Shown: positions 19,765-61,117 of the stretch, in pieces
Position numbering within the stretch: position 1 is the stretch's first letter
Layout of the letters: every line of letters begins with the position of its first letter
Assembly: GCA_964058845.1 (NCBI GenBank)
Contig: CAXKVR010000029.1
Coordinates: 1-64,000, forward strand
Length of the DNA: 64,000 nucleotides
Source of the DNA: Carex sylvatica
Lineage: Eukaryota; Streptophyta; Magnoliopsida; Poales; Cyperaceae
Reading direction: 5' to 3'
Made by a program: the position numbers and the translations under genes
Notes under the pieces: model-generated
Seen by the model: only the letters and a program-made list of their open reading frames with translations
What the model was told of the DNA's origin: nothing
The model's database searches: none

Positions 19765-20117
19765 CTATGGCTTTGCTTCAGGAGGATTACAATTATAAAT
19801 CTTACGGCAGGGTCTAGGGTAAGGCCCGCCTTTGGGTGATGGCAACGCAGGGTGATTTGGATTTAATGCCCTCCCATTAATTGCTGAAAACGAGGAGATG
19901 ACAAAGTAGATTTCCAATTTAAAATTGACAAATAAAAGAAATACAGAAGAAATATTTGTCACTTTATCTATTACTAGAAATTTCGACGTACCATCATTTA
20001 AAAGATATATAACTTTGATAAACTCTTCTTCTTGTACTGGTTCGAGTTTCATTGAATTATCATGTAAATTAAAGTCTCAATACTTCCTTTAGAAAAAAGA
20101 ATACAATAGTATTAATT

Positions 20118-20158
<41 letters not shown>

Positions 20159-20278
20159 CTTACAACCAGCCTTGTTCTCTTCCAGGATTCGAGCAGCCTC
20201 GGTACAAGGCAATAGGAGAGAGCTAGTGAAAAATAGGAAGAGAATGCAGAGAACTGGGAGAGCTTTTGTTGTTGACAT
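19765..20278 (-). CDS. Secreted cysteine-pair peptide A, RALF-like C-terminus
   Basis: Two exons, 20278-20164 and 19883-19765, with a 280-bp phase-1 intron, encode 77 residues. Residues 1-28 are a signal peptide (MSTTKALPVL, a Leu/Phe core, ending PCTEA before AR). A short pro-like segment ILEENKAG follows. Exon 2 encodes a basic, Pro-rich tail with GGPYPRPCRKIYNC then NPPEAKP. The PY-x-R-x-C-x5-C pattern resembles the C-terminal half of RALF peptides, which bind CrRLK1L receptor kinases at the cell surface. The first RALF cysteine pair and the YISY-type motif are absent, and RALF genes are usually intronless, so membership is an inference. The intron holds a (GA)n run. The start is supported by an identical MST start in the paralogues and by the promoter position. 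Confidence 0.8.
20120..20155. repeat. (GA)n microsatellite in the intron of peptide gene A
   Basis: A near-perfect AG dinucleotide run next to the donor site. A shorter imperfect version occupies the same place in gene B (about 26773-26790), and CT runs sit just inside the donor in genes C, E and F. Confidence 0.85.
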
Positions 20279-20328
20279 TTTGGAAATTTATTTTATGATG
20301 CAGCTGGTACCCTCCAAGGATTCATTCC

Positions 20329-20421
20329 TATATATAGACTTCCTAAGGCAATTATTACAATTAATTAAAAATATATATGGATACGATTCAGCAATTATCT
20401 CTTCCATTGACCTCAGGTCAA
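20329..20421 (-). promoter_or_regulatory. Promoter of peptide gene A: TATA box and W-box dyad
   Basis: A TATATATA box lies at 20329-20337, about 50 bases upstream of the start codon. The palindrome TTGACCTCAGGTCAA at 20407-20421 holds a W-box core (TTGACC) on each strand, the binding site of WRKY factors. Confidence 0.65.
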
Positions 20422-21775
20422 TGCAACTTTTCAGCACACTTGTCGTTAGTTATGGTGCATTTTTTCAATTTTTGGTAATGCATGTACAAGTCAGGATCAT
20501 TTTAGTTTGACAACGATCGTGGTTTTAATTTGTTGGAATAGTTTACTGAAGATATTTTTCATATTTTTGGTTGGACCATCTTTCAGTGTTTATCTCAAAA
20601 CCAATGGGTCAGCTGGGCCGGCTCAAATAAATTTATACTTTTATTTCTACTAATTCTTTCATCTATACAACCAATTACTTGACTAAAGTTCCCACAAATC
20701 TTTGGTTCCAATTTTAATTTGTTTATCGCACGACAATTGTTTTACATCTTATCTGGTGGATCGACTGTTTGTTTACTTACTATGTTTTTTCATTTAGTAT
20801 TTTTTAATTGAATAGTGTCTATTATACTATGTTGATCTTAGTCAAAATGAATGAGGTGCACTGGAAGAACCTGGTTTATTCTATAATATCTATGCAGGTT
20901 TTTGTTTTCAATGGAAGAAAAGTTCATTGAGGATATTATAAAATGTTATTTCTGTATTAGTTTGGTGGTATTGAAAAACATTTAATTAATCTCATTTTCT
21001 TAAATGAAAGTTATATCATATTACATTGTTTGTACATAGTAGAAAATTAATTAATATATGTTAAGTTTTTTAATCTTTATTGACTATATCTCAGACAAAA
21101 TAATAAGAAACTATTAATAAGAAGGAATTCAATGTTGCCTTCAAAAAAGAAACAATATCAATGTCCCTACTTTTTACTTACGTTATACATCATAGATATA
21201 TAATCATTAAAATTATTGTATCTTAGACGTAGTTACAAAAAAAAAAAAATTAATTCAATATCTCATGAAATATACATACTGAATCAGAATGACAAATTCA
21301 AATCACCTAATATAAATTAATTAAATACACATTATGTCCATGAGTAGTCATTATTTCTCATGCATGTCATTTTATTGAACAATACGAGGACACATCAAAA
21401 TACGCTTTCAGATTGAATTTAATATTTTAGTAATATTATTTGGAATTTGAAATTGTGTTATTAGCGGTGAAAAAAATATATCGGATTATGAATATTTTTA
21501 GTAAGATTTTTGTATTAGTTATTTAGTAATCTACGATTGAAAGAAAAAAAAATGAAGGCAATTTTGTCCAGGCTCTTTATCAATTGACCTATGTCATGTT
21601 ACTTGCGACCATTTTTTGTTTCTAAAGTGTTATTTACAATCATTTATTAATTGACCTATGTCATGTTATTTACAAGCATTTTTTCTTTATCAATTGACCT
21701 CTATATGTAATTAAATTTGTATATTGTCTGGGTTAACGCAAAGTATGAAACAGTAGAGTAACCCACAGATCTTAA
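20422..21775. other. Spacer shared with the flank of gene B
   Basis: Most of 20430-20900 is alignable with 27075-27480, for example TTATCGCACGACAATTGTTTT and GTCAAAATGAATGAGGTG. Part recurs again near 28560-28830. It is a duplicated upstream flank of the peptide genes. No coding region is supported. Confidence 0.6.
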
Positions 21776-22071
21776 TGTGATACACGTGTAACCTTGTACC
21801 GGTACTCGCTGAGCACATCCTCTGCATCATAAGAGATCTTCTTCAGCTCCTTGAGCCACAAATTGATGGAGAGGTCTCTGATCTCTTTCTCCTCAGCATT
21901 GTACAATGTGGCCTTGATCTCTCTCTAAATCCTTCTCAGCAGCACAAGCACATTCTTTTTGTGAGTTATTAGAATTTTAAGAAGACGAAGAAGGAGCCTC
22001 GGCAGAGGTTGTGATTGAGTGGAGCAATTTGGTTCCTAGAGATAGCAAAGAGGCTTTCAAATTCCCTCCAA
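21776..22071 (-). pseudogene. NLR coiled-coil exon fragment, second copy
   Basis: The minus strand is clearly related to NLR exon 1 at 18450-18103: AAGGCCACATTGTACAATGC and the stretch encoding WLKELKKISYDAEDVLSEY are recognisable. The expected ATG is TTG at 22071-22069, an internal stretch matching LEQLMRTLER is lost, and frames are broken. Homology continues into the 5' flank to about 22340. No NB or LRR part follows. Confidence 0.8.
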
Positions 22072-23882
22072 TTTAGCTCTGTAGATTTCTGTGGAGAGGG
22101 AGGAAAGAATCTTAGATCTAAATTATGATATTAGATAAATTACAGTAAATTTATAAAAAGTTGTTTTGATACTATTTCTAAAAATTCCACCAATTAATTA
22201 TTTTTCTTGAGAAGACTTGACAGTATGTAGTCAATGCTTAGTTCACTTTTTCTTTTAGTTTTTCTTGGAAGTGGCGCGGAAGTGGAATGGAGTACTTTAG
22301 GGGGAATGGGGTCACTTTGTCTCTAGGAAGCTACCTTGCAGTTTGCAGTTTGCTGTTTGAAAGAAACCACCTCCACCTGTTAACGATTTTCTTGATATAA
22401 AGCGCTACCACCTATTAAGCAATTGCCCATTCTTTCAACTTTTTGGTGCTCTGATTTTGGGAAAATCTTATATAGAGTGGATTAAAAATTGACAGGGAGC
22501 ATATAATTGGGCGAGCTTAAAAGTCTAATAACTGAGTTCAAAGATACGAACAAAACAATCGTACCTGTTCATTAAAGCCAAATCTACATGCTTTTCTTAT
22601 TTCTATTGTAACCTTTTTTAAGGAATTAATTCCTCATATACACCTCAATTCTACATGCTTTTCTTATTTTTTCTTCTACTCTTCAAAATTTCTTATACTT
22701 GCGACTTAACATCTGTAAATATTTTTTTTATATACTCATCAGATCATTACTATAAGTTTAATTACAATTATTTTCTTACACAAATATTATTCAATCTTAT
22801 ATCTAAAATGAAATGACAAATGACAAATATGCCCCTCTTATTCCTACTTTAGGGGGGGGGGGGGGGGATGGGGGGCAACTTCCTCCTTGGATTTTGAAAA
22901 GTAATTTTGCAGAGTGCAAACAATGGAAGAAATAATTTTATTTGGATCTCGTTTACAAGTATGATGCATAAATAGTTTGGGTTAATCCTATGCAATCCGA
23001 TGCCATTATCTCGATGTAGTACATATATTTTCAGAATTATATTGTTGCTAAAATATTAAATTCAATTTGAAAGTGACGTGGAGAAGACTTAAGAGTACAG
23101 TAGTCAATGCTTAGTTTACTCTTTCTTTTACGTTTTTTTTCTTTTTCACTTTTTCTTGGAAGTGGCGTGGAAGTGGAATGGAGTTTAGGGCAAATGGGTC
23201 ACATTTTCTATAGGGTATAAGAGACTATTTTTGTAATTTTTTATTATGTAAGGGACTATATATGTTATTTTTTATGTACTATCCAATTAATTCTTCTATT
23301 TGAAGACATTTGAACCCAAAAGTCCAAAATCCAAGGAAATTATTTCCATTTCCTACAAATATCGTTTGTACCAATGTTATAAGAATGAACAAAAGATATA
23401 TGATTTTTTAAATAAATTAGAAAATAATTGCAAGCATTCTGACTGAACATAGGTATGTCAACTTTGTCTTTATTATCATTAACAAACTTTATTTTAAATG
23501 GACGTAGGCATCATCAACTTTGTATATATTATCATTAACAAACTTTATTTGTTGGTGCTCCATTTACTAAAGTTCTAGGCATCATCAACCAACTTTATTG
23601 TTTGTTTGATTGCACGGTCATCTATCTATTATCATGTTATTATCTTCTCAACAATTCGAGCAGCTACTTTTATTATTAGCTTTATTAGGCCTGAAATGAA
23701 TCCGGTACACTCCGTCTGAATCCGTTCCGTATAAGAATCCAAATATGGATAAACGCAACAGATAATTTTTCGGTTCCGAATTCGGATATTAATTAAATAC
23801 AGAAAATAAATCTGAATTCTATTAGAGATCAATAGAACGGATGTACGGATTATCAAAACCAGTTTTTTCTATTAGAGATAAA
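22072..23882. other. Duplicated NLR 5' flank and AT-rich spacer with a second G run
   Basis: 22080-22340 and 22941-23000 match the sequence upstream of the main NLR. AGTGGCGTGGAAGTGGAATG-type sequence also occurs twice locally (about 22270 and 23162). A G run of about 16 bases begins at 22852. No gene is seen. Confidence 0.5.
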
Positions 23883-24569
23883 TAGGGGTGTTCAAATAGT
23901 TCGGTTTATTTGGTTTTTAACCGAACCGGAAAAATTCGGTTTAAATGGTTCGGTTTTTCAGTTTAATTGGTTTTGTTCTATTTTTGGTGTTATTCAGTTT
24001 TTGTTGTTTGGTTCGATTTAGAAAATTTTAAAATCGGTTGAACCGAACCGACCAAATTGTTTTGATATATCGCGTTGCTTCTGTTGGGTTTAGGGTTCGC
24101 TTCATTTGAATCTCCGACTCATTTTTCTTTTTTCGCCTTTGTCTCTTCTGAGATTCTATCACCGCCTCCATTTGAATCTCTGAAGGAAACAAATCAAAGA
24201 AATCCACCTCCTTTTATATGCTCAACTAAGATCTCATTCTCTGCCATCCGATTTCAAGGAATTTTCTCAATCTTTTGTCTTTTCTCTACTCATTTTCTTT
24301 CTGTGTAAGTTTTGTGTGATTTGTGCAATGCACGAGAAAAGCAGGACATATCAAAGAATTTGAAGACTGCCTTTTAATTTTTTGATCTAGTCTATCAAAT
24401 TTCGGTTTAACTGAACAAATCAAAATTTACATTAGTTTGTTCGGTTCGGTTGTAATTCGGTTTAAAAGTTTAGTTCGGTCGGTTTGGTTTTATTTTTTCA
24501 AACCGAATAAAACTTTGGTTTGCAAAAATTAGTTCGGTTTCAACCGAACCGATCGTTTGAACACCCCTA
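23883..24569. mobile_element. hAT-like element with GGGTGTTCAAA ends and a possible captured gene fragment
   Basis: Ends are TAGGGGTGTTCAAA and TTTGAACACCCCTA, a hAT-style inverted repeat. Subterminal regions are rich in CGGTTT/AACCGAAC in both orientations. The centre (about 24075-24320) is different in composition, pyrimidine-rich like a 5' untranslated leader and open for 77 codons before a GTAAGT-like donor, so it may be captured host sequence. No target duplication was found. Confidence 0.6.
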
Positions 24570-25239
24570 CCATTGTGAGACTAACTTAAGATTCTGGACC
24601 GGAGCAAGTATTTTTTTTTTTTAGCATACTAAAAACAAGTATGTTTTGATTATAATATATGTATTATATTATATAAATGGATTATTCATATAACTTAATT
24701 ATTCAAAAATTATTCGCTTCATATCCGTATTCATAGATTGCCCATTCCATATCCGTATTTGTTGAAGGTAGATTTGATTTTAAATGATTATACCCTTTTA
24801 CTATCTGTGTTCGTGTTTGAATGGTGGAACAAATTTGGTATCATTTAGCATTATCCACTTCACAATATTGTTAAAAATCACACATTAGCATTTCACAACC
24901 CAATACAAGTACTTATATTAACTGAGTAAGCCATAAAAACAATTAACACCAAAAATTTATCACTACGCTTCATGATCACATTTCTCAAGTTTATTGTAGT
25001 CCCTAATTTGAACTTACAAAGATAAGTCTACTCAAAATATGCACCTACATCTACACCCCTTTTATTATCACAGCGGCAAATGTTTCCATACAACGATAAC
25101 TTCACGATCACATTACCTAAGTTCATTATAGTCCCTAATTTGAACCTACAAAGATAAGTCTACCCAAAATATGCACCTATGTCTAACAAGACATGCCTTG
25201 TTCTTAGCTGTGTGTGCACGTACGTATACTCGGCATACA

Positions 25240-26434: not shown

Positions 26435-26913
26435 CTATGGCTTTTCTTCAGGAGGATTACATTTATAAATCTTAGGGCAGGGTCTAGGGTAAGGCCCGCC
26501 TTTGGGTGATGGCAACGCAGGGTGATTTGGATTTAATGCCCCCCCACGAATTGCTGAAAACGAGGAGATGACAAAGTAGATTTCCAATTTAAAATTGAGA
26601 AATGAAAGAAATACAGAAGAAATCTTTGTCACTTTATCTATTACTAGAAATTTCGACGTACCAAAATTTAAAAGATACATAACTCTATCAAACTGTTTTT
26701 CTTGAATTATCATGTAAATTAAAATCTGAATACTTCCTTTAGAAAAAAGAATACAATAGCTAATAATTAAGATAGAGAGAGAGACAGAGATTACTTACAA
26801 CCAGCCTTGTTCTCTTCCAGGATTCGAGCAGCCTCGGTACAAGGCAATAAGAGAGAGCTAGTGAAAAATAGGAAGAGAATGCAGAGAATTGGGAGAGCTT
26901 TTGTTGTTGACAT
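26435..26913 (-). CDS. Secreted cysteine-pair peptide B, RALF-like C-terminus
   Basis: Exons 26913-26799 and 26553-26435 with a 245-bp phase-1 intron encode 77 residues. The signal peptide is almost identical to A (MSTTKALPILC, ending TEA before AR). Exon 2 ends GGPYPRPCPKIYKC then NPPEEKP. It differs from A mainly by INGR to IRGG, Arg to Pro after the first exon 2 cysteine, Asn to Lys before the second, and Ala to Glu in the tail. Two-exon structure, donor (GTT, then GTAAGT) and acceptor (GTTTTCAG, then CAAT) are conserved. A and B are close sisters in the same orientation, about 6.6 kb apart. An apoplastic signalling peptide is likely; a specific receptor cannot be inferred. Confidence 0.8.
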
Positions 26914-26978
26914 TTTGGAAATTTATTTTATTTTGCTTTGTTTTATGATGGAGCTGGTACCCTCCAAGGATTCATTCC

Positions 26979-27071
26979 TATATATAGACTTCCCAAGGCA
27001 ATTATGACAATTAATTAAAAATATATATGGATACGATTCAGCAATTATCTCTTCCATTGACCTCAGGTCAA
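26979..27071 (-). promoter_or_regulatory. Promoter of peptide gene B: TATA box and W-box dyad
   Basis: TATATATAG complement at 26979-26987 and the palindrome TTGACCTCAGGTCAA at 27057-27071, in the same arrangement as gene A. Confidence 0.65.
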
Positions 27072-31896: not shown

Positions 31897-32016
31897 TTGA
31901 CCTGAGGTCAACGAAGTAGATATCATTGTAGAAAAGTCCAGAGGTGCTATATATCGTATCCATATCTTTTTTTTTTTTAATTAATTTCAATAATTGTCTG
32001 GGAAAGTATATATATA
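31897..32016 (+). promoter_or_regulatory. Promoter of peptide gene C: W-box dyad and TATA box
   Basis: TTGACCTGAGGTCAA at 31897-31911 and a TATATATATA box at 32007-32016, about 70 bases before the start codon. Confidence 0.65.
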
Positions 32017-32082
32017 GGAATGAATCCTTGAGAGTACATACTGCATCATAAAGCAAAGCTGGATAAAATAAATTTTCATAAG

Positions 32083-32573
32083 ATGTCAACCGCAAAAGCT
32101 CTCCCAGTTCTATGCATGCTTTTCCTATTTTTCACGAGCTCTCTCCTATTGCCATGTACTGATGCTGCTCGAACCTTGGAAGAGAGCAAGGCTGCTAGTA
32201 AATAATCTCTCTCTCTCTTAATTAATTGCTAATGTATTCTTTTTTAAATTAAGGAAGAATTCGGACTTTAATTGACTTATAATTCAATGAAACTTAATTG
32301 AACCAGTACCTTTTAATTTGCTCCTAATTAATTATTTAAGTGGCAAGTTGATTTTTTTTGTAATAGATGAAGTTATAGATATCTTCCATAATTCTTTCAT
32401 TATTAGTAAATTATTGATTGCAAATCTACTTTGTCATCTCCTCATTTTCAGCAATCACCTATAGACCTATAGTAAATCGATCACGACCTATAGTAAGGCC
32501 ACCAGGCCCTCGACCCTGCAGTAAGAATAATCCTAAAAGTTGTTATCGTTCTCCTCCTGAAGCAAAGCCCTAG
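32083..32573 (+). CDS. Secreted cysteine-pair peptide C, divergent tail
   Basis: Exons 32083-32197 and 32452-32573 with a 254-bp phase-1 intron encode 78 residues. The signal peptide is MSTAKALPVLCMLFLFF, ending PCTDA before AR; the pro segment is TLEESKAA. The exon 2 product begins TITYRPIVNRSRPIVR, an internal near-repeat of RPIV, then PPGPRPCSKNNPKSC and a tail ending PPEAKP. Cysteine spacing is C-x7-C instead of C-x5-C, and the PY before the first cysteine is replaced by GP, so the RALF resemblance is weaker here. The donor is GTAAAT. The gene sits directly downstream of a copia fragment, and the whole block is duplicated at 41.4-43.6 kb. Confidence 0.78.
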
Positions 32574-34700: not shown

Positions 34701-34750
34701 TACTAGATAATAGCTAAATTGTATCCATATCTATTTGGCCTTGAAAAGTC

Positions 34751-34814: not shown

Positions 34815-35176
34815 ATGTCAACAACAATACCTCTTCCTGTTGTCTGCATTCTCTTCCTATTTTTCACTAGCTCTCTCGTATTGCCATGCACCGAGGCTGC
34901 TCGAAACCTGGAAGAGAGCAAGGATGGTAGTAAGCAATCTCTCTTTCTTAAATGAAACTTGAACCAGTATCTTTTAAATGTTGGTAGTTTAAATTTCTAG
35001 TAATAGATAAAGTAACAGATTTATCTCCCGTATTTCTTGTATTTTCAGCAATCGGTGTGAGATCATTAAATCCAAATCAACCTTCGAGTCGATCACCCCG
35101 AGGCAAACCTTACAGACGACACTGCAGTTACAAGTATAATTGTTCTCGTGATCCTCCTTCAGAAGCAAAGCCATAG
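34815..35176 (+). CDS. Secreted cysteine-pair peptide D, RALF-like C-terminus
   Basis: Exons 34815-34929 and 35049-35176 with a short 119-bp phase-1 intron encode 80 residues. The signal peptide is MSTTIPLPVVCILFLFF, ending PCTEA before AR; the pro segment is NLEESKDG. Exon 2 encodes TIGVRSLNPNQPSSRSPRG, then KPYRRHCSYKYNC and SRDPPSEAKP. The PY-x-R-x-C-x5-C pattern is kept, and SLNPNQP parallels ALNPNHP of A and B, so D is nearer to A and B than to C, E and F. It has a different upstream region from the other intact genes (no W-box dyad), so its expression may differ. Confidence 0.8.
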
Positions 35177-35269
35177 AGAAATGATTCCTGGTACATGAAA
35201 GAATAAGAGCAAGAATAATGCAACGAAGTATTTATGTATGTGTTGAAACAATATGTAAGATGTATAATT

Positions 35270-35410
35270 GTGGTAATTATTGTCCTTCTCAAGCAAACCT
35301 GTAGAAGAATGATTCCTGGTTACATGAAAGAGTCAGAGCAAGAAGAATGCAACAAAGTATTTATGTATGTGTATAAAGAATAAATGTGATTTATATATAT
35401 GTGCTCGGTG
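35270..35410 (+). pseudogene. Duplicated 3' end of peptide gene D
   Basis: About 115 bp after the stop, the end of exon 2 and its 3' untranslated region recur: TGT CCT TCT CAA GCA AAC CTG TAG, then AAGAATGATTCCTGGTTACA and the usual GAATGCAACAAAGTATTTAT. Only the last few codons are represented, with KP changed to NL. Confidence 0.7.
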
Positions 35411-38474: not shown

Positions 38475-39617
38475 TTATTTATTGTAGATCCCACTTTTAA
38501 TGTTAGGGAAACCGCAACCATAAAGATTCACATAACACGAATGCCCTAATGGAATCAACTCATTCGGCAGAACACAAAGCAAATAACATAACTGAATTTC
38601 CAGCCTTGTAAGTGATGAAATGCTCTCTCCATTAGAGGAATCACCAAGTGGCTCAGTAGATTCCATCAAGTGCAGTCCATCCATCGTTATTGATTGCAGA
38701 ATTTCACAAGAGTAAATCCCCAGTGTATCCAACATATTCATATTTCCTAGTCTGGTAATCAACTTCAGATGGGCACAACTTACAATATGCAATTCTTCAA
38801 GCTGGGAGGGCAGCTGCTTCAGCTGTAGAACTTGGATACTATCACATGTATCAATAGTGAGGTGCTTGAGAGTGTGAAGATTGCGGAATGGAAGAGATTC
38901 AATATTGAAACAACAATCTAACCAGATTTTCTGTATTGATTGCAACGAAGACGGATCACTCATCCATCCCGGAAATCTGGCAGAAGAATAAAAGCTTAAT
39001 TGAAGAATTTTGAGGTTAGGATGTGGCTGGAGGGATTCCAACCAGGAAAAAGCTGCATCATCGACACCAACCCACTTGTCCTCACAAGCTTCTGGTTTGA
39101 CGCTTAATATCAACTGTGATCCCTCAGGGTAATATGATACCTCGAAATCAGTTTCCCAGCTTAAATTCAAAGTTTCAGGTTTGCATTTATTTCTCATGTT
39201 AGCACACTGGGCATCTTTTAAATTAGTCATTCCATAAATAGAGAGATTTCCTTCAAGGTCTGTTATATCCTTTAACCAAGCTATATTTTTAACTCTCAAC
39301 CTTGCTGTCATTTTCTTTATTGATGGAAAATTAGCAAAACCATGAGGGACATATTCCATTAAATTATCTCCAATAACTAATCTCAGTAAGTTACTAAGAA
39401 GATCACCAATACTTTCAGGTAGATATTCCAGGATAGAGCAATTGAGAACTAATATCTGTAGGTTGTAAAGGACACCAACGGATGATGGCAATATTCTAAG
39501 TAATGGAGAAGTAATACTAAGATAGGCAAGGTGTTTCAACATTTCAAGGTTGCCAGGAATCTTTGTCAAAATATCCTTTTCAATTCGAATACCCTGAGTG
39601 CTTCAAACCTAGTGAGG
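38475..39617 (-). pseudogene. NLR fragment: leucine-rich repeat region only
   Basis: The minus strand is open for 364 codons from 39569 and is a paralogue of the LRR half of the 12-18 kb NLR (LAYLSITS, ARLRVKNIAWLKDITDLEGN, GNLSIYGMTNLKDAQ, LPSQLEELHI). It retains QKIWLDC where the other copy has a stop. Upstream, FEALRV is still readable, but a missing base near 39580 breaks the frame. Homology ends sharply at 39617, so the coiled coil, the NB-ARC domain and the first repeats are absent. It ends with GCGFPNIKSGIYNK. Without an NB-ARC domain it cannot be a canonical receptor; an LRR-only transcript is possible but unsupported. Confidence 0.9.
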
Positions 39618-42755: not shown

Positions 42756-42870
42756 TTGACCTGAGGTCAACGGAGAAGATATCATTGTAGAAAAGTCCAG
42801 AGGTGCTATATATCGTATCCATATATTTTTTTAATTAATTACAATAGTTGCCTGGGAAAGTCTATGTATA
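42756..42870 (+). promoter_or_regulatory. Promoter of peptide gene E: W-box dyad and altered TATA box
   Basis: TTGACCTGAGGTCAA at 42756-42770. The TATA position (42863-42870) reads TATGTATA instead of TATATATA, which may weaken it. Confidence 0.6.
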
Positions 42871-42936: not shown

Positions 42937-43409
42937 ATGTCAACAACAAAAGCTCTCTCAGTTCTCTGTATTCTCTTCCTATTTTTCACAAGCTCTCTCA
43001 TATTACCTAGTACCGATGCTGCTCGAACCCTGGAAGAGAGCAAGGATGGTAGTGAATAATCTCTCTCTCTTAATTAATTTATGGTGTATTCTTTTTTAAA
43101 TTAAGGAAGTATTCAGACTTCAATTGACTTATAATTCAATGAAACTTGAACCAGTACCTTTTAATTTGCTCCTAATTATTTAAGTGGCAAGTTGAAATTT
43201 TTTGTAATAGATAAAGTGAGAGAGATATATGTTCCGTAATTCTTTCATTATTAGTAAATTATTAATTGCAAATCTACTTTGTCATCTCCTCATTTTCAGC
43301 AATCAACTATGAACCACTCCCTAGTGCAAGGCCACCAGTCCCTCGACCCTGCAGCAAGAAGAATCATCCTAAAGGTTGTCATGGTTCTCCTCCTGAAGCA
43401 AAGCCGTAG
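42937..43409 (+). CDS. Secreted cysteine-pair peptide E
   Basis: Exons 42937-43051 and 43300-43409 with a 248-bp phase-1 intron encode 74 residues. The signal peptide is MSTTKALSVLCILFLFF, ending PSTDA before AR: the usual Cys five residues before the Arg is Ser. The pro segment is TLEESKDG. Exon 2 encodes TINYEPLPSARPPVPRP, then CSKKNHPKGC (spacing x8) and HGSPPEAKP. The donor is GTGAAT rather than GTAAAT/GTAAGT, still a GT but probably weaker; together with the TATA change this may lower expression. E and F differ by few residues and arose by tandem duplication. Confidence 0.72.
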
Positions 43410-43738: not shown

Positions 43739-43855
43739 TTGACCTGAGGTCAACGAAGAAGATATCATTGTAGAAAGGTCCAGAGGTGCTATATATCGTA
43801 TCCATATCTTTTTTTAAAATTAATTGCAATAATTGTCTAGGAAAGTCTATATATA
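43739..43855 (+). promoter_or_regulatory. Promoter of peptide gene F: W-box dyad and TATA box
   Basis: TTGACCTGAGGTCAA at 43739-43753 and TATATATA at 43848-43855. Confidence 0.65.
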
Positions 43856-43922: not shown

Positions 43923-44398
43923 ATGTCAACAAGAAAAGCTCTCCCAGTTCTCTGCATTCTCTTTCTATTTTTCACTAGCTCTCTCATATTGCCTACTACC
44001 GATGCTGCTCGAACCCTGGAAGAGAGCAAGGCTGGTAGTAAATAATCCCTCTCTCTTTTAATTAATTTCTGGTGTATTCTTTTTCAAATTAAGGAAGTAT
44101 TCAGTCTTTAATTGACTTATAATTCAATGAAACTTGAACCAGTACCTTTTAATTTGCTCCTAATTATTTAAGTGGCAAGTTGAAATTTTGTTGTAATAGA
44201 TAAAGTGAGAGAGATATATGTTCCGTAATTCTTTCATTATTAGTAAATTATTAATTGCAAATCTACTTTGTCATCTCCTCATTTTCAGCAATCAACTATG
44301 GACTACTCCCTAGAGCAAGGCCACCAGGCCCTCGACCCTGCAGCAAGAAGAATCATCCTAAAGGTTGTCACGGTTCTCCTCCTGAAGCAAAGCCCTAG
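43923..44398 (+). CDS. Secreted cysteine-pair peptide F
   Basis: Exons 43923-44037 and 44289-44398 with a 251-bp phase-1 intron encode 74 residues. The signal peptide is MSTRKALPVLCILFLFF, ending PTTDA before AR; the pro segment is TLEESKAG. Exon 2 encodes TINYGLLPRARPPGPRP, then CSKKNHPKGC (x8) and HGSPPEAKP. Compared with E, the mature part differs around EPLPS/GLLPR and V/G before PRP. The donor (GTAAAT), TATA box and dyad are all in good condition, so of the E/F pair F looks the more likely to be expressed. Confidence 0.77.
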
Positions 44399-46403: not shown

Positions 46404-46746
46404 ATGTCAACAACAAAAACTATTTTTCACTAGCTCCCTCATATTACCTTCTACGGAGGCTGGTGTGTATATATATATTTTTAAAAGTATTCAAACTTTA
46501 GTTGACATGATAATTCAAAGAAACGAGAACCACCCTGCAGTATTACAAATCTGGTGTACATCTGCTGTTTTTCTTTCATTAGTTATTAATTTTAAAATTA
46601 CAAATCTACTTTGTCATTTCAGCAATCAGCCCCAGAGTATTACAGCCAAAGCCTTCCGTTCCACCAGGCAAGCCCCGAGGCAGCCTTACACTGGGAGGTG
46701 CACTAGGTTATATAGAAAAAAATGTCCTCCTGAAGCAAAGCCCTAG
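46404..46746 (+). pseudogene. Broken peptide gene G
   Basis: Exon 1 starts ATGTCAACAACAAAAACT, but about 26 bases of the signal-peptide region are missing, so the frame meets TAG within ten codons. The pro segment is also deleted (CTACGGAGGCTG runs straight into intron-like sequence). Exon 2 (46623-46746) is recognisable after TTTCAG; its first half reads ISPRVLQPKPSVPPG, then a one-base slip leads to QPYTGRCTRLYRKKC and PPEAKP. The W-box dyad upstream is degenerate (TTGACCTTAGGTAAA at 46265-46279). Confidence 0.85.
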
Positions 46747-48829
46747 AAGAATGATGTCTGGTTACATAAAAGATTAAGAGAAAGAAGAATGCAACAACGT
46801 ACTTTTGTGCTTGTATAAATATTAAGTGAGAATTATAAATAAGTGCTCAGAAGGGGATTTCATATATTAATATTGTATTGTGTACAATTAATAGTTACAT
46901 ATGTTTATGCCAATGCCATCTACATTGTTTGCACGTGGTAATAAGGAGAGTGGTCAAGCAACCCCACTTGACTCTAATTTCATTATCCTGAAGTAATTAT
47001 GTTGGTTGAAATAAATAATTTTAAATGACCTCTATGTGAATGATTCTCAACTACTATGGGTGTCAATGATACCCTTCTAGCCATTTATCCAACCCGTACC
47101 GTATTCGATAAAGCAGGTATGGGTAAGATTTTTTTCGTTAGCTAAATGGTTAAGGATACGGGTAACAACTATTTCCTACCCATTACCCTATAGGGTAATT
47201 ATATAAAATATAATAATATGATAATGTTTGAGCAATAATTAGTGAGTACATTTGTAACATTCCGTCACGTTCAAAAAAATAATTGAGTCATTATTATTAT
47301 TTTGTTAAATTATTTTTGTATTTATAATATTGAGTATACTATATGTGTCTGTTGAATAAAAAAAAATGTTTCTGAATTAATACACCTGTTAATAAAAAAT
47401 TATAAATTATAAGAATGAAATAATAGAATTGTAATTTTTATCTGGTTCCTAAATTATGGATTTGGCCAAGTTTATTTTATTCCCTTTATATTGCTTTTAA
47501 TGATAACCATATATTTTATGATCCAACGATTAGGAAAGAAATCAAAATTAAGTCTCCAATTATATATTACAGTGCCTTCTTTGGAGAAATTTACAATTTA
47601 ACTCCAGCTGAACCTAGTTTATTTATCCTCCAAATACATCAATCAAATTATAGAAATTATCATAGCAATCACCTCTAATTACGCCTCCTATGATATTTGT
47701 CCTCCACCGAAATTTTTCATCAAATCTCTCTTTCCCTCCGCTGCTGCTGGACAAATTGTTCTCATTTCAAACCATCCAGAAATTACCAAGGTAATCTTGA
47801 AATCAATACTTTAAATTCCAATATTATTTTATTTGTTCATTTCTTAGAATAAAATTCTTGAGTTTGAGTGACCTCAATCTAGAACAGATGAAGTAACATT
47901 TAAAATGGATTGATACTTGAAATTATTCTTTTTCGTTTTCTTCTTCTTTTATTTTAATTTAAATATTGAGATAAACTAATCCAACATCTTAAACTAAACC
48001 AACGACTTGAGTCAACTAATTCAACAATTTAAAATCTGTATGTTAAGCTACAAAACATTGAAATAAACTGGTTCATATATTGATAAAAGGACAGTTTTAT
48101 TGAAACTTCACTTTGACAAGAGGTAACAGAGAAAATGAAATCATTGAAGAAAAAACAACAATACAAACTTTATTGCTGGACTACAATTGTATTTGTATTT
48201 TGTATTTGTAGATGACTACAGATATATAACAGATGTGCAACTCCAAAAAAAAAAAAGCATTTTACAATAATAACATAAAAATTAAAATTAAAATTAAAAA
48301 AATTTAATAAATCTGTATCTGAAAATTGTGGATCATCAAAAACTGTTCACACTTTTGATAAATTTTCTTATGACAGGGATGTTGTTTAAAAATATTTTAA
48401 AACCAAAGTACATAGATTTAATTTTTCCTCGAACTAAATTTCCTTGGCAGATACAGCTAACTAATACAGCTGTTAAATTTACTCGAAACTCAATTACAAG
48501 ATTTAGGATTCACCAATATGATAATACTACAGCAGCAATAACACGAAGGTTTAACCTTTACAATTTAAGATTTAAGACTTATGATTAATATTATTAATCA
48601 GTAAGGCTAAACCCTAAATCCTAAACCCTAAATTTTTCTGAAAATCACTGATTTTGAAAAATACTAAAAAAATAGTAAAGAATTTCCAAAAAATATAAAA
48701 TTTGGTTTCCGTGCACAATTTAATATGGATATCAACTTGAACGGTTCAGATCGACGTTCTGAACTTTGAAACTAGAGATATAAGTGCAAATTAAAAATTC
48801 ACTTTAATTTACAAAAAATGATAACCTTA

Positions 48830-48860
<31 letters not shown>
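46747..48860. other. Peptide-gene 3' flank, half of a hAT element and telomere-like scrap
   Basis: 46760-47040 is the usual 3' flank. 47055 to about 47250 (GGGTGTCAATGATACCC, then GGTATGGGTAAGATTTTTTT) matches one end of the hAT element at 49616. CTAAACCCTAAATCCTAAAC at about 48607 resembles plant telomere repeats, but only three units are present. An 86-codon open frame at 48328 has no recognisable features. Confidence 0.5.
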
Positions 48861-48864
<4 letters not shown>

Positions 48865-48867
<3 letters not shown>

Positions 48868-49290
48868 GTTGGCTACTATGCTTATATAAGCATATCCCCA
48901 CATATGCTTATAACTCATTTTTGTGTTTTCAATCTCCAAATGGTCGATCGGAACCATTCATATTGTTCTCCATATTAATATGTGCTTGGAAACTAAATTT
49001 TACATTTTTATGAATTTTTTTACTATTTATTAAGCCACTTTGAAAATCGCTGATCCAACGGTGGCTGCACAAAACAGTAAAATCAGCAGCCACCGTTGGA
49101 TTAATAATTTTCAAGTGGCTTAATAAATAGTAAAAAAATTCAGAAAAATGTAAAATTTAGTTTCCAAGCACATATTAATATGGATAACAAGATGAACGGT
49201 TCAGATCGACCATTTGGACATTGGAAATATAAAAATGAGTTATAAGCATATGTAGGGATATGCTTATATAAGCATAGTAGCCAACCTCTA
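48865..49290. mobile_element. Long fold-back MITE, first copy
   Basis: GAGGTTGGCTACTATGCTTA, then TATAAGCATATCCC, begins the left arm, and the mirror image ends the right arm. The arms are about 200 bp each and nearly identical, meeting at GGTGGCTGC, a short loop, then GCAGCCACC. It is flanked by TA dinucleotide runs, suggesting insertion into TA-rich sites. RNA from it would form a long hairpin. Confidence 0.9.
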
Positions 49291-49615
49291 TATATATATA
49301 TATATAATGGTAGCCTTACTCTATCTATCTATATATATATATATATATTTAATACATACAGTAATGATAAATCTCTGACAGGCCCACACTGAAACAATAA
49401 TCAAGAGCCCCTGGTAGCTGCCAAGAGTAACGGTTCTGGCGTTTGTGGCCCCATATTTGGTACATACTATGCTTTATTTTTATTTTCATATCTGTCTGAG
49501 AGAAGTTTATTTTCGGGCAAAGCCTAAAGTGACAAAGATTGTTTGGCGTCTGATTGAGCTATATATATTAATGGTTGAACATGTCAAAGTCGCCTCACAC
49601 GATACTGAACACAAA

Positions 49616-50491: not shown

Positions 50492-51559
50492 TCAGAGTCC
50501 ACAGAGCAAACCAAGCACTCGGGGCACTCTACGGAGCAAATCAAGCACTCGGGGTGGATGATGATTAATTCCACAAAGCAAACCTTGCAGCTCGGATTCT
50601 GGTGGGTTGGAGAAATTCACAGATTCTCTAAGCGAGAGCAAATCAAGCAGCGGTGCAGGCTGGGAGGGCTTCACCCGCTCAAATAATGCCTCTTTGGCTT
50701 TTCGCTGCATGGCCATTATTGGAACGAACGTGAGTGCAAAAAGTAACACCAATGCTTCTGCGAGTGCCAGGCCATAAAAGACATTTAAAACGAAGTCCCG
50801 AGCCATCTGATTTGCCACTTCTGTTTGGCCAAAATCCTGTGAGGCTAACCGCATTATAGAGAGAACAACACAAGTCATGGCAGAGACGAGCTTGTACCAG
50901 TAAAAGAATCTGACGATGGAACGAATCGGGAGCGCCAATTGTTGGATATCGTTTTCTATACTCAAGTTGTCCGCCGACAAGGACTGAGTAGCCTCTGTTA
51001 AAGACCTTCAAATATTGACATGAAAAATTAAAGAGCCATTTAAAATTAATTTCAGCAAAAAGTTGTCATATATATATACATACCAAATGGCTTGGGGGCA
51101 GAAGTAGCCCCAGTAGCGGAAACATACTAAGAAAAACAACACAGTGACGAACACACGATCCTCTGTTTCCACGGTGGTGACCATCCCACCTTGCACCATC
51201 ACCGCCACCGGCAACCCACACACCAGAACTCCCAGAATTCTGGCCCCCATCTCCAGTAGCGCTGTTATTGGGACGAGCTTTTCCTGTGATCCTACATCAG
51301 GCGACAAAAGGCATCTGCCATTGCCATTAATGTTCTGTGTCGAGCCTGATGAATCCTCCTGCTGATGGGTGGTCATTTCAATTGTTACATGAGCCCTGCT
51401 GTCGTCACCATTATTGTTCTGTGTCGAGTCTGATGAATCCTGCTGCTGAAGGGAGGTCATTTCATTTACATGCACCCTGCTGTCGTTGCCGTTATTGTTC
51501 TGTGTCAAGTTTGATGAATCCTGCTGCTGATGGGCGGTCATGTCAATTACATGCGCCAT
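50492..51559 (-). CDS. Four-helix membrane protein of unknown function with N-terminal tandem repeat
   Basis: Exons 51559-51084 and 51005-50492 joined by GTATGT and TTTGAAG (frame continuous: TG plus G makes Trp159) encode 329 residues. Residues 5-81 are three imperfect repeats of about 25 residues built on MT-x-x-Q-Q-Q-D-S-S and TQNNNG-x-D-S-R, hydrophilic and probably disordered. Four hydrophobic segments lie near residues 99-125, 135-155, 187-212 and 229-257. A basic stretch (QRKAKEALFER) follows, then a Leu- and Pro-rich tail with the near-repeat RVLDLL/RVLGLLCGL. GC content is above the surroundings, supporting a real gene. I do not recognise the family; a faint resemblance to the membrane part of plant ARM-repeat membrane proteins is only a recollection. 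The tail may be truncated or altered. Confidence 0.75.
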
Positions 51560-53215
51560 ATATGCTGAGAGAATATTACATGTGTATAAAACTCAAAGAA
51601 TATGCAACTGAACAAATACATTGAGCCAGTACCGCTTGTGGCCGAGGAGGGGAAGGTCCAGTCGATAACATAGTTGAGAGTTGCGGTTTGTTTCACTGTG
51701 ATGTTCCTCTTCTTGTTGCTCTTCCCCTGACGTTTGTGCTTATTTCTATTGTTTTCCACATCAATTTGCACTTACTGGAATAAAAATTGGAAAGAAGAGA
51801 TGGGGAGGTGGAAGAGGGGACGTGAACAGAAAATCCGAATGGAACTTTTTGCCATCTTAATTTATTGAAAACGCGTTCATTAATTTGATGAAAGCTTTCA
51901 AAATTACAAATGACAGACTTTTGAACCAGTGTGGGGCCCTCCTATTTGTTTTTCAACGACGATTATGAATGACATCAGTGCTTGCCGGATTGCAAGTGAT
52001 ATTCTGTCATTTGCAAAAAAGAAAAAAATAAAGAAAAAATAAAGAAAAAAAGAAGTCATATTCTGTACTGTGATATCTTTGGACTATATATTTGCAGCAG
52101 TGGATCAGTAAGAAATAACCATCTAAATAAATCTATCATTATACAGTTTCGGCGTTTCTGCTCTAATCAGTCCCTTTCAAATATGTAAATGGAAATTTCC
52201 GGTGAATGGTTTTCCTCCCTTAGTTAGTGTCATCTTTCCTATTTGCTAAGATGACACTGACAGATATGGTATAAACCTTATCGATGGACTGCAATATTAT
52301 TTGTATTTTATTGGTATTTGTAGATCAGTACAGATATATAAAGGTATATACGAAACCAATAGCAGAGGTGCAACAACAGAATAATTAATAACATAAAAAT
52401 ATAAAATATAAATCATAAAATTGACATTAATAAATCTGTGTAATATTTTTGATATTCGTAATCCTTTGTTTTAATAAAATGAAATTGACTAATTCAATGC
52501 CAAAGCTCCATCTGACAAACAGAAAACTTGCAAAACTTACAATCCGAATTTCAAATAGTAAAAATTAGTTTAAACTAACACAATTTATGATGGAAAAACA
52601 AGTAACCAAACTTACATATCAAAGTTTAAAATATTATTAAGTTTTTTGAGTATTAGTTACTAATGAATAAGTATCAATCCTAAATTTGTAAAGTATCATT
52701 ATCAATTAACAATTGCTGATCAAATTTAAAAAAATTTACAAATCATTTATTAACTTCTGATTTGGTCCAAAATTTTCTCCCAATTTGACCCCCTATCTGC
52801 TAATTAACTGTCCTGAACTATGATATCTCATTGAAATAATAAAAAAAACCTTAGAATAATTAGTAAAATTCCCTAATTATCAGCAATATTTCTTTTTTAT
52901 TAACATAAAAGAATATTTGTAGAACTGTAATTTACTTTATGCTCGTAAAAAAGGTGTATCAGCTTTTCATCAAAAGGAGATATTAAGTTAATGGATTAAT
53001 AGCCAAGGGGTATTTGAAATTCAAAATAAGCACAAAAATAAAAATCACTAGTTGGACTATACTAAGTGCTAACTTAGGTCAAAACACTAGGCTCGGGTTT
53101 TTTCTTTTTTTTTGAAAATGCTGACAGTGGCTGTCAGTTATAGTTCATACAAAAAAATAATAATAAAAAAGAAAGAAAAATACATCAAAGATACTACCAA
53201 CCAACAACACTAGGA
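51560..53215. other. Promoter region of the membrane protein gene and AT-rich spacer
   Basis: 51560-51850 is less AT-rich and probably includes the 5' leader. 52080-52830 resembles the peptide-gene flanks (AAATTTGACCCCCTATCTGC-like at about 52780). No further gene is seen. Confidence 0.5.
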
Positions 53216-53345: not shown

Positions 53346-53459
53346 TTGTAAAAAGAGGTTCAAATTAATATGGGCTTCTCTGGGCTATAATATGAAGGTC
53401 CCTGATGGACACCTATTGGGCTGCTCTCAGTGGGCTCAATCACTTAGCTGTATGATTTA

Positions 53460-56935: not shown

Positions 56936-57220
56936 CTCTATGTTCCCCATTTTTCTCTTCTCCATCCAAATTCTAACCTAGCCGCCCCTCCTCTTCCTCA
57001 TCCCTCTCTATTCTATTTTTCTCACCTCTTCTAGGTCTCAACTCGACAAAGTGATTTTTTTTTTTTGAATATTTATATTTTAGACCACCTAGCGTTTTTT
57101 ACTCTTATGTAAGCATAACCCTTGATAGGATTTGTTCTCTAATCAAACTGCTCTCATATTTCCACAAATAAACATTTCATTCTAATACTTGCTCGTCTCT
57201 GCTACATAAGCTCTTATCCA

Positions 57221-57412
57221 ATTATTTTGCAGCTTTTTTGATGATGGTTTCCTTTCGCCCACAAGAAATAATTTGGAGCCCCCTCGAAGACCCTCGGTAG
57301 AAATGAATTTATTATTCAATTTATTATAAGGTTTGTAATAATTAAACTGAAAGAACTTTCTTTGCTTGTGGTGACTCATTTTCATCGATTTTGTATTTTT
57401 TTTCCTGTTTTT
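57221..57412 (+). pseudogene. Relic of the NLR terminal exon and 3' untranslated region
   Basis: TTTTGCAG, then TTTGATGATGGTTTCCTTTC and CCCCTCGAAGACCCTCG, TAGAAATGAATTTATTATTC and TTTTCATCGATTTTGTATTT parallel, in order, the last exon of the NLR copies at 12.0 and 38.3 kb, but on the plus strand. No coding NLR part is present next to it; gypsy sequence lies upstream. Confidence 0.75.
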
Positions 57413-58090
57413 AGTGGAGTTCATAATCGTATCCTCTGTGATATCACACATTTTCAGCTTATCCAAATCTAGGTCAAACTTTTATCAATATTCATTCAGA
57501 ATGCCGCTAGTCATTATTATTATGCTTCGAGATTTGTGCATAAAGAATTTGAATGGCCCAGATTTTCCACAGATCAATTCAAAGTCTGAAATATCTCAGA
57601 AGTTGTGAATTCATTCAGAAATTTTTATTCACAGAAAAATGAAAAAAGAAAAAATTAAAAATATAAAATGTTGCGTAGTCATATATGTCATCTCCATCTC
57701 TTATTGTCATGCTTGATGCTTACAGATGCTACGTCCGTTTCCCATGTCTCATGCTGATCATCTATTTACCAATACATTGAGGGCTAATCATATTATTAAA
57801 AATATTAATAAAGTGAAAAAAACTTGAGGGCCTGTTTGTTATAGATAAACCCATGTGACAAATTCTTTGACATTTTAATGCATGGGAGCTCCCTGTCAAT
57901 TAAAAACAAACATTTTAAATTTGCCCAAAAAAAAAATCCTGACCTTAATTATATAACACCAATGAAAGTTCATTCAGAGAGTAACATGTGATTCCATGGA
58001 CGCAAAAACTCAAAACTCTACAAATTATATATAGAGAGGGTTCCAAAATACTCGTACCATTCATATCTCAGCATATCTCATATTTTATTA
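57413..58090. other. AT-rich spacer
   Basis: No gene, RNA or clear element recognised. Confidence 0.5.
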
Positions 58091-58094
58091 TATT

Positions 58095-58375
58095 ATGGTT
58101 TTAATAGTCTAAATTATCGGCCCGAACTTCTTAACATGATTCATACTATAATATGCTTAGGATTAAATTTATAATTTTTCAATTTTTTTTACTATTTTTT
58201 AAATAGATAGAAACTAATTGTTTTGGAACAGTATAGAAACATTGATTTTGTACGTATCTTAAAAAATAGTAAAAGAATTGCAAAAAATTATAAAATTTCA
58301 ACTCCAAGCATATTATAGTATGGATATCATGCATGCTGAGCGGTTCGGATTGACAAATTGAACTTTAAAAACAAA
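58095..58375. mobile_element. Degenerate fold-back MITE
   Basis: The left arm (about 58114-58207) and right arm (about 58258-58363) are imperfect inverted copies, centred on TTTACTATTTTTTAAATAG and CTTAAAAAATAGTAAA. Composition and core match the MITEs at 9300, 48865 and 59191. Confidence 0.65.
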
Positions 58376-58439
58376 GAAATAAAATATGAAATTTGATGAT
58401 GTAGGAAAAGAATAAGGTATTGAAACCTTCCTCATAAAT

Positions 58440-59185
58440 TATAAAAAATAATATAGGCTGGATAATATATAGCCTGCCTTGAGATTTTAATTATGTAGAG
58501 AAAACCTAAAACTTTATCGGTTCTTGTCAGCATTCTAAACGAATTGGAAGTTATTTTCGTTTAATTCTTGTACGTAGTTACGGAATATATTGTTTAACCG
58601 AACTTTAGATTTTGGTTCCTTCTGTTAAAGAAAAATTTGTATACAATTAATCCATTACGCTGTATTAATTTTTATATTATTTATGAATAAAAATACTGTA
58701 TTTATACGCCAGCTATGCAGCTTTACTTCTGCAACTTTTGTGAACAGATCTTCTGTGGTTTAAACTCTAGGAATGGAACATGTTGCGGGTGAAATGTAGA
58801 GAGAAACCGGGTCAAAGAATTCATCACTACATAAATCTTGTACAATATCGACATAGGAAACTAAAAAAGAAGGAGAAAGAATTAGTGGGCCTCATGTGCT
58901 TTATGCGCTCCTGCAACAAGGTGACACGTAACAGGTCTGTTTTGGCCGCGCATACAGGGATCAGTTGTGGCTGCATTTCTATAACTATTCACGTTGAAGT
59001 TGATATTTATTTGATTACTCACATGCTGACATGCAACTTTAGTTGCAAAAAACTTCCAATAAAGTTTTCCATGCTAAAAAGTCTTGAAATTATATAAATT
59101 GTAGTATTTAAGTAGCACATCAGTATTTTTATATTTTAAATATGTATATTTCATAACACACATATACACACACACATATATATAC
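58440..59185. other. AT-rich spacer
   Basis: No supported gene. A 105-codon frame near 58780 has no recognisable domain, signal peptide or splice support. Confidence 0.5.
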
Positions 59186-59190
59186 ATATA

Positions 59191-59615
59191 TATGAGGTTG
59201 GCTACTATGCTTATATAAGCATATCCCCACATATGCTTATAACTCATTTTTGTGCTTCCAATGTTCAAATGGTCGATCTGAACCGTTCATCTTGTTCTCC
59301 ATATTAGTATGTGCTTGGAAACTAAATTTTACATTTTTCTGAATTTTTTTACTATTTATTAAGCCACTTTGAAAATTATTAATCCAACGGTGGCTGCTGA
59401 TTTTACTGTTTTGTGCAGCCACCGTTGGATCAGCGATTTTCAAAGTGGCTTAATAAATAGTAAAAAAATTCAGAAAAATGTAAAATTTAGTTTCCAAGCA
59501 CATATTAATATGGAGAACAAGATGAACGGTTCAGATCGACCATTTGGACATTGGAAGCACAAAAATGAGTTATAAGCATATGTGGGGATATGCTTATATA
59601 AGCATAGTAGCCAAC

Positions 59616-59622
<7 letters not shown>
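59191..59622. mobile_element. Long fold-back MITE, second copy
   Basis: Same arms as the element at 48865 (GAGGTTGGCTACTATGCTTA, and its mirror at the right end), again in TA-rich flanks. The loop (GATTTTACTGTTTTGTGC) is in the opposite orientation to that of the first copy. The arms are nearly perfect inverted repeats. Confidence 0.9.
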
Positions 59623-59652
<30 letters not shown>

Positions 59653-60698
59653 CATACATACATACATATATATATAGAGGAGGGATCCAATTACACTATT
59701 TTTCTTAACACCGAATTACACTCTATATTTTTGAAGTCTAAACAGTCGATTCAAACCGTTCAACATGATGAATATATTAAAATGTGCTTGCAGATCAAAT
59801 TCTCACAAATTCTCACAAATATAAAGATCAATATAAATATAAAGATTATCAATACAATATCCAATTCTCACAAATTTACAAGTTGCACATCTGCTGGTTC
59901 CGTTGTGTACCAAATTCCTAGACATTGTCAAGTAGTCCTTAATTGTTGTTATTTTATTCAATTAATGATTTCATTGTCTCTGTTGACCTCGAGTACGTCA
60001 AAGTGAAGTTTTAGTAAAATTGTACTTTTGCCTAACAGCGAGATTTTCTTTTGTTGGATTAGTTGACTCGAGTCGTTGGGCCTCTAGCTCCTTGGGATAG
60101 GGTTGGGATGGCAAGGGATTAGTCTGCGTTTTTTTCCCTCAAAATTAAGTATTCAGAGGCTCTGAGCAAGGCATTTTTTTCCCTCAAATATGTACCATGT
60201 CTCAGTTGAGATAGCAGATATATGGGGTCAACTTTGAAAAAAGTTGGATATAGCCAGAAGATAATATTTAACAGTTTAATGAATTGTATAGTTTTGTTAT
60301 ATATGTTTTTAAATCATAAATTGAGAAACACGGGGACAGGCCCTTATAAATAATTAGTTTAAACAAATCTATAGTATTTCAAAATTCTATGTGTTGAAGA
60401 TAATCATTGACAGAAGTCATCACAATTATTTATTTCAACCAAGTGGGGCTGCTTGACCTCGATCTCTACTTTGTGACTGCATGCAAGCACTTTAGATGGC
60501 ATTGGCAGATTTACTTACATGAACACAAGTTTTTGGGACAAACCTATGTAACTATTAATTGTACCCATTACAATATTAATATATGAAATTCCCTTCTCAG
60601 CACATATATATAATTCTCACATATTATTTATACAATACATAAATACGTTGTTGTATTCTTCTTGCTCTTAATCTTTCATGTAACCAGAGATCATTCTT
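59623..60698. other. Spacer, then reversed 3' flank of peptide gene H
   Basis: TA and TACA runs at 59620-59675. 59690-59820 carries half of a MITE (AACAGTCGATTCAAACCGTT). 59985-60660 is the conserved peptide-gene 3' flank in minus orientation (GACTCGAGTCGTTGGGCC, GTGGGGCTGCTTGACC). Confidence 0.55.
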
Positions 60699-61117
60699 CT
60701 ATGGCTTTACTTCAGGAGAACAGTTTTTTTTATATAACTCATTGCACCTTGGTCTAGTGTAAGGCTGGCCTCGTTGAGGAACGCCTGCCGGGTTGCGTGA
60801 TGGCAAACCTGCATAAGGATGGCCTGCTATTCCTGCATAAGATTTCTCTCTCACTTTACCTATTACTAAAAATTTCAACTTACCACTTAATTAATTATGA
60901 TCAAGCAAATTAAAAGATATTGGATCTATTTTAATTGAATTATCATGTCAATTAAAGTTTGAATCTTCTTTTTTTTTAATAAGAAAAAAAGAGAGTACTT
61001 ACCATCTGCCTTGCTCTCTTCCAGGGAACGAGCAGCCTCAGTACAAGGCAATATGAGAGAGCTACTGAAAAATAGGAAGAGAATGCAGAGAGCTGGGAGA
61101 GCTTTTGTTGTTGACAT
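60699..61117 (-). CDS. Secreted cysteine-pair peptide H, RALF-like C-terminus
   Basis: Exons 61117-61003 and 60832-60699 with a 170-bp phase-1 intron encode 82 residues, the longest of the family. The signal peptide is MSTTKALPALCILFLFF, ending PCTEA before AR; the pro segment is SLEESKADG. Exon 2 encodes GIAGHPYAGLPSRNPAGVP, QRGQPYTRPRCNELYKKNC and SPEVKP. QPYTRPRC links it to pseudogene G (QPYTGRC); cysteine spacing is x7. The acceptor is CTTATGCAG rather than the ATTTTCAG used by A to F; a second in-frame-shifted CAG lies just downstream, so the acceptor choice is the main uncertainty. Confidence 0.75.

Follow-up and report, generated by a model that had tools for sequence, protein, structure and literature searches.

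A stretch of 64,000 nucleotides (nt) from the sedge Carex sylvatica (assembly GCA_964058845.1, contig CAXKVR010000029.1, positions 1 to 64,000; hereafter the window) carries a cluster of small two-exon genes that forms part of a larger array in this genome, and whose products are homologous to grass proteins named after the cereal defence protein WIR1 (wheat-induced resistance 1). We consider it probable that the cluster represents an expanded, fast-diverging sedge array of WIR1-family genes, the peptides of which would be inducible, secreted, wall-acting relatives of the RALF peptides.

Family models were searched over the window by nhmmer, and spliced models were then built for each gene. 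Seven full copies of exon 1 (E 1.6e-35 to 9.3e-40) and seven matching copies of exon 2 were found, giving seven models in which exon 1 is invariably 115 nt long, the intron (119-280 nt, GT..AG) lies in phase 1 and the product comprises 74-82 residues. Together with two broken copies (Table 1), these confirm the first-pass annotation, which had described seven intact genes and two broken ones with an exon 1 of constant length and a fixed intron phase; the pattern is far beyond chance. A C-terminal KP is present in all seven products, and in 18 of the 19 array models introduced below. The acceptor ends in TTTTCAG in six of the seven genes; that of gene 61117-60699 (minus strand) ends in ATGCAG, and its intron has a gap relative to the nearest relative, so that exon 2 of this gene is less certain. 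Exon 1 would encode a conserved signal peptide and a short pro segment, making the whole product a putative pre-pro-peptide, and exon 2 encodes a basic, proline-rich peptide of 32-45 residues with one cysteine pair.

The array is larger than the seven genes of the window. A search of 64 Mb of the same assembly (950 contigs) returned 30 matches. Exon-1 places account for 27 of these: the contig of the window (C29) carries 16, reaching up to 257 kb, C373 has five, C767 three, and C176, C66 and C72 one each. These figures are minima, and haplotypes may be among the copies; exon 2 is identical in C29:257264 and C373:4188. Complete spliced models, all with one intron phase, were obtained for 22 of the 27 places, and comprise 19 close genes, here termed the array genes, of which C29 carries 15, C373 three and C66 one, and three divergent paralogues (C72:7828, C767:21476 and C767:38620). 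Elsewhere, C29:78207 has an internal stop and no exon 2 was seen for it, exon 2 of C373:14771 and C767:12959 was not recognised by the search pattern used, and C373:45746 and C176:53883 are cut by contig ends.

Homologues were sought with a sedge-only profile of the 22 models and then with wider profiles to which relatives had been added. The closest matches of the 22-model profile were three Carex littledalei proteins (E 2e-20 to 3e-17), followed by three JGI proteins (2e-10 to 3e-8) and by proteins of the magnoliid Asimina triloba and of Eragrostis curvula (0.02-0.35), and a widened profile reached more grass and Asimina proteins that had not been part of it. Homology to proteins that carry the WIR1 name in their source records is detectable: the 'protein WIR1B-like' of Lolium perenne matched at 1.9e-9 a widened profile not containing that protein, and the 'protein WIR1A-like' of Miscanthus matched at 1.2e-20 a profile of three grass sequences, one sedge sequence and one rice-relative sequence. 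The family had been thought lineage-specific; since homologues occur in grasses and Asimina, it is not. In the reverse direction, a profile free of Carex and window-genome sequences scores 19 of the 22 models at 13.4 bits or above, and the Carex protein P0001, a gene prediction, is spliced at the equivalent junction, in agreement with the window models. Among the relatives, Asimina triloba P0007, P0016 and P0026 and Aristida P0013 contain the PYTxxC peptide unit twice per protein, in the manner of a multi-peptide precursor. The grass-type exon 1 frames of P0050 and P0051 extend beyond the signal peptide into different sequence, which suggests that the intron of the grass relatives may lie about 9 residues earlier than that of the sedge genes.

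With WIR1 (WIR1A, WIR1B and WIR1C of cereals) the sedge genes share a short precursor, an N-terminal hydrophobic segment ending near GR or AR, and a core PLxPG..P.PRGxPYTxxxC-x5-C with a proline-containing tail. An intron in the coding region is taken to be a further shared feature, since the TaWIR1 element is published as -46..-1 plus 50..261 from the ATG, which we read as spanning one. The sedge genes differ in their longer exon 1, which includes a TLEESKAG pro segment, in their KP tail and in the loss of PYT from three window genes; the likeness is drawn from WIR1-named grass relatives. In the accounts cited here, WIR1A transcripts are reported as induced in stripe-rust resistance (PMC3637676), in Fusarium head blight (FHB) lines (PMC5797473), in Fusarium-infected barley (PMC4158134) and in rye leaf rust (PMC10863301). 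The same four sources place WIR1 repeatedly among rust- and Fusarium-induced transcripts of wheat, barley and rye, and cite WIR1A expressed in wheat epidermis as giving powdery mildew resistance. An open-access full-text search, outside the scope of which lie most subscription papers, found no paper in which WIR1 occurs together with RALF or 'alkalinization factor'.

The 600 nt upstream of each of the 19 array genes were scanned on both strands for the W-box core TTGACY, with dinucleotide-block shuffles providing the expectation. We observed 38 cores against 12.1 expected, a count to be read with the shared descent of the array copies in mind, because of which they are not independent. An inverted pair, TTGAC(C/T)nnnGGTCAA, occurs in 11 of the 19 promoters, including six of the seven in the window, and the promoters share a conserved TATA block. 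W-boxes are binding sites of WRKY factors in defence. The earlier proposal of a defence-type peptide thus gains support of an indirect kind from both the promoter W-boxes and the homology to WIR1-named proteins.

By its sequence, the exon-2 peptide is probably related to RALF (PF05498) rather than a member of that family, because all scores lie under the Pfam gathering cut-off of 22 bits. When four models were scanned singly against Pfam (all such scans being read to E<=10), only the four-cysteine C767:38620 matched, to RALF (17.4 bits, E 0.0098). Among 39 full members RALF was the most frequently matched of 13 families (four members, best E 0.0013), and for 22 mature regions it was the only family (4/22; best E 7.1e-4 and 21.0 bits, for a trimmed Oryza brachyantha relative). 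The same 22 regions reversed, as a composition control, matched RALF in 0/22 cases, and composition alone therefore does not yield RALF. In profile searches of the PDB (177,635 sequences), profile A3 returned RALF4, RALF4 and RALF8 as ranks 1-3 of five matches (E 0.067, 0.24 and 1.5), and the reversed form of A7, the 22-sequence mature profile, returned no RALF among six matches. In a control in which 3000 shuffles left Cys and PY in place, the score of a 62-sequence mature profile for RALF4 (19.0 bits) was reached by 0/3000 and that for the RALF remnant of this genome (13.4 bits) by 6/3000; with the sedge models alone, RALF4 scored 14.6 bits (6/3000) and RALF8 10.1 bits (211/3000).

In the alignment, xIxYxxL stands opposite the RALF YISY region and PYxRxC-x5-C opposite the RALF C-terminal loop, the first cysteine pair being omitted; the peptide would retain from RALF a degenerate xIxY at its start together with the C-terminal loop, and lack the first cysteine pair. 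Among the 19 array models, PY is found in 16, xIxY in nine and RRxL in none; all have two cysteines and a net charge of +2 to +8, and the cysteines are separated by five residues in ten models, as in RALF4 and RALF8, and by 4-8 in the rest. Four cysteines in two pairs, absent from the array, occur in the divergent paralogues C72:7828 and C767:38620. The four-cysteine relatives of this genome and of Oryza brachyantha match RALF across profile positions 13-65, and C72:7828, C767:38620 and Oryza brachyantha P0030 look like intermediates.

Known RALF-type proteins offer partial parallels. The clade IV RALF-related peptides are characterised by Campbell and Turner, in the passages drawn on here, as short, nearly devoid of RRxL and variable in YISY, many of them without cysteine 2. 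The array peptides resemble them in being short and basic, in lacking RRxL and, in part of the models, in a degenerate xIxY and a C-terminal PYxRxC-x5-C; they differ in lacking the first cysteine pair (19/19), in having one intron and in scoring under the Pfam cut-off. Strawberry FveRALF14, a protein with a RALF domain in which two of the four cysteines are present, is likened to them by its published description, and the strawberry RALFs differ in being, as published, single-exon except for FveRALF15. Of the three RALF matches in the genome itself (L027, L028 and L029), a readable RALF-like stretch was present only in L028 among the frames inspected. At L028 (C312:89047-89175) this stretch has YISY and the last cysteine pair, no first pair, and a stop in the matched frame; we read it as what is left of a canonical RALF after loss of the very piece that the array peptides lack.

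A number of observations weigh against a WIR1-family array of RALF-related peptides. The RALF gathering score is reached nowhere, the best value being 21.0 bits in Oryza brachyantha and 17.4 bits within the family of this genome, and even with the threshold relaxed to E 10 no RALF match is seen for 18 of the 22 mature regions or for 35 of the 39 full members. Profile A7 places an unrelated toxin chain first in the PDB (0.25), with RALF4 second and third (0.34 and 0.79). The sedge-only exon-2 profile is weak there, with RALF at ranks 2, 3 and 5 (E 5.7-9.7); its top match is the same bacterial toxin chain, reached via a short proline-rich stretch. The RALF8 score of the 62-sequence profile (12.3 bits) was attained by 120/3000 shuffles, and by 385/3000 with the sedge sequences left out. 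An AlphaFold2 model of the grass member P0035 had a mean predicted local distance difference test (pLDDT) score of 58.8 and two helices, the peptide part being without fold. RALF genes are described as mostly intronless, which makes the array intron a difference. The WIR1 identity derives from the names that their sources give to two grass proteins, and window genes 32083, 42937 and 43923 score -1.0, 5.8 and 1.5 bits with the non-sedge profile, although we count them as family members on exon 1, the intron and the 3' sequence despite their loss of PYT. W-boxes are absent from 3/19 promoters, and the shared descent noted for their counts belongs here too. An open-access full-text search, outside the scope of which lie most subscription papers, found no paper in which WIR1 occurs together with RALF or 'alkalinization factor'.

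Alternatively, the genes would belong to the WIR1 family without deriving from RALF; short basic Cys/Pro peptides would have converged on PYxRxC-x5-C, and the products would be associated with the wall or serve in adhesion between membrane and wall. Such an origin would explain why every RALF score is sub-threshold and why an intron is present, unlike in most RALFs, and would suit descriptions of WIR1a as integral membrane proteins with an effect on the structure of the wall (PMC10863301) and as strengthening wall-membrane adhesion (PMC5797473). However, reversed sequences yield no RALF, the four-cysteine relatives match RALF over profile positions 13-65, and the RALF4 score survives shuffles that fix Cys and PY; we judge convergence unlikely, though it is the strongest competitor to a RALF-related peptide.

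Other secreted-peptide families were considered. The CTNIP/SCREW phytocytokines, our first lead on account of their two C-terminal cysteines, are likewise small, secreted and often unannotated, but their candidates are described as filtered for a Cys spacing of 9-11 residues (PMC9191895), and they were ruled out by the 4-8 residues between the cysteines in 19/19 array models. Were that spacing to be read as a position difference, two of the 19 models would reach 9. An epidermal patterning factor-like mature peptide has six or more cysteines; this assignment, suggested by a single UniRef name (P0011), was ruled out by the presence of two in P0011 after the signal segment and in all 19 array models. 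Three single weak matches in NCBIfam are meaningless. Secreted antimicrobial peptides acting directly on microbes and diversified by an arms race would likewise be basic (+2 to +8), proline-rich, Cys-paired and clustered, with a variable exon 2. Yet no antimicrobial-peptide family was matched in Pfam, and the conservation of the PYxRxC core from grasses to Asimina is more in keeping with binding to a receptor or the wall; the RALF-like end would also favour a signalling peptide, and we regard a direct antimicrobial role as improbable.

The two exons evolve differently. Pooled over all 171 array pairs, the ratio of nonsynonymous to synonymous change (dN/dS) is 0.48 for exon 1 and 0.81 for exon 2, and is thus not close to 1 in both, so that the first-pass annotation is not refuted by its own dN/dS criterion. 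Rates were compared in nine near-independent close pairs, hand-picked from the 171 (13 listed) and including both C29:153762 with C29:75389 and the related pair 20162/26797. Differences per nonsynonymous (N) and synonymous (S) site were 0.036 and 0.080 in exon 1 and 0.108 and 0.087 in exon 2, with 0.063 in the intron and 0.099 in the 3' flank. Exon 1 N lies below the intron (p 0.006), and exon 2 N exceeds both the intron (p 1.4e-4) and exon 1 N (p 4e-8). These rates place exon 1 under purifying selection and mark exon 2 as relaxed or diversifying, and the anticipated combination of a constrained signal/pro exon with a fast-changing peptide exon is borne out by the gene models and exon-wise rates alike. 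Positive selection on exon 2 is suggestive only: exon 2 N is not different from exon 2 S in the nine pairs (p 0.40), and its value lies near that of the 3' flank (figures set side by side, without test), and a firm claim was therefore dropped. That the genes are mostly decaying duplicates of little function, carried along by NLR-cluster rearrangement, would agree with exon 2 N being no different from exon 2 S, with the broken copies in the window and outside it (C29:78207, with its stop) and with the one atypical acceptor, but is the least likely explanation of all, given the low exon 1 N, the conserved TATA block and the retention of frame, both cysteines and splice sites in the 19 array models, the latter argument being partly circular because the models were selected as intact.

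For the RALF-related peptides that we favour, attack would lead to induction through the W-boxes, after which the peptide would be secreted, closed by one disulfide, and may function in the wall, either as a RALF-like signal or by binding to the wall. Candidate partners, as a first guess, would be a CrRLK1L/LLG receptor or LRX/pectin, and the paralogues may diverge under selection or by recombination.

The cluster is interspersed with pieces of coiled-coil (CC)-type NLR (disease-resistance) genes, all on the minus strand (Table 1). Two further copies of a segment found upstream of the array genes at 42.5 and 46.0 kb lie at 62698-62893 and 63476-63671, and are orphan 5' flanks with no detectable exon 1 behind them within the window. 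Two copies of an element resembling a miniature inverted-repeat transposable element (48835-49306 and 59194-59648) have long inverted arms that are 94-98% complementary. At 8852-10083 (plus strand) two open frames match DUF620 (PF04788) as parts of one spliced gene, and at 50492-51592 (minus strand) two adjoining open frames have hydrophobic stretches, no Pfam match and an internal 81-nt tandem repeat (51321-51554).

Table 1. Array genes, broken copies, inverted W-box pairs and NLR pieces located in the window.
Feature	Position	Strand	Details
NB-ARC, winged-helix and LRR pieces	12185-14651	-	
Rx_N piece	17881-18450	-	
Intact gene	19765..20278	-	exon 1 20278-20164, intron 280 nt, exon 2 19883-19765; 77 aa
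Inverted W-box pair	20407..20421	-	upstream of gene at 20278
Intact gene	26435..26913	-	exon 1 26913-26799, intron 245 nt, exon 2 26553-26435; 77 aa
Inverted W-box pair	27057..27071	-	upstream of gene at 26913
Inverted W-box pair	31897..31911	+	upstream of gene at 32083
Intact gene	32083..32573	+	exon 1 32083-32197, intron 254 nt, exon 2 32452-32573; 78 aa; PYT motif lost
Intact gene	34815..35176	+	exon 1 34815-34929, intron 119 nt, exon 2 35049-35176; 80 aa; upstream 600 nt without W-box
Broken copy	35254..35384	+	only duplicated exon-2 end and 3' flank
LRR piece	38475-39569	-	
Inverted W-box pair	42756..42770	+	upstream of gene at 42937
Intact gene	42937..43409	+	exon 1 42937-43051, intron 248 nt, exon 2 43300-43409; 74 aa; PYT motif lost
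Inverted W-box pair	43739..43753	+	upstream of gene at 43923
Intact gene	43923..44398	+	exon 1 43923-44037, intron 251 nt, exon 2 44289-44398; 74 aa; PYT motif lost
Broken gene	46404..46826	+	exon-1 remnant 46404-46467, exon-2 region 46619-46826
Gene with atypical acceptor	60699..61117	-	exon 1 61117-61003, intron 170 nt, exon 2 60832-60699; 82 aa
Inverted W-box pair	61327..61341	-	upstream of gene at 61117

WIR1 is a cereal defence marker whose action is not known and which is usually called a membrane or wall protein. Somewhat more tentatively than for the array itself, we suggest that the WIR1 family as a whole may be a branch of RALF-related secreted peptides that lack the first disulfide, that in sedges it may have become an NLR-linked, fast-diverging array, and that WIR1 resistance may be a form of RALF-type wall-integrity signalling. 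If WIR1 proteins are indeed RALF-related secreted ligands, this would be directly testable with synthetic peptides and known receptor mutants, and the naturally varied peptides of the sedge array could serve to map their binding target.

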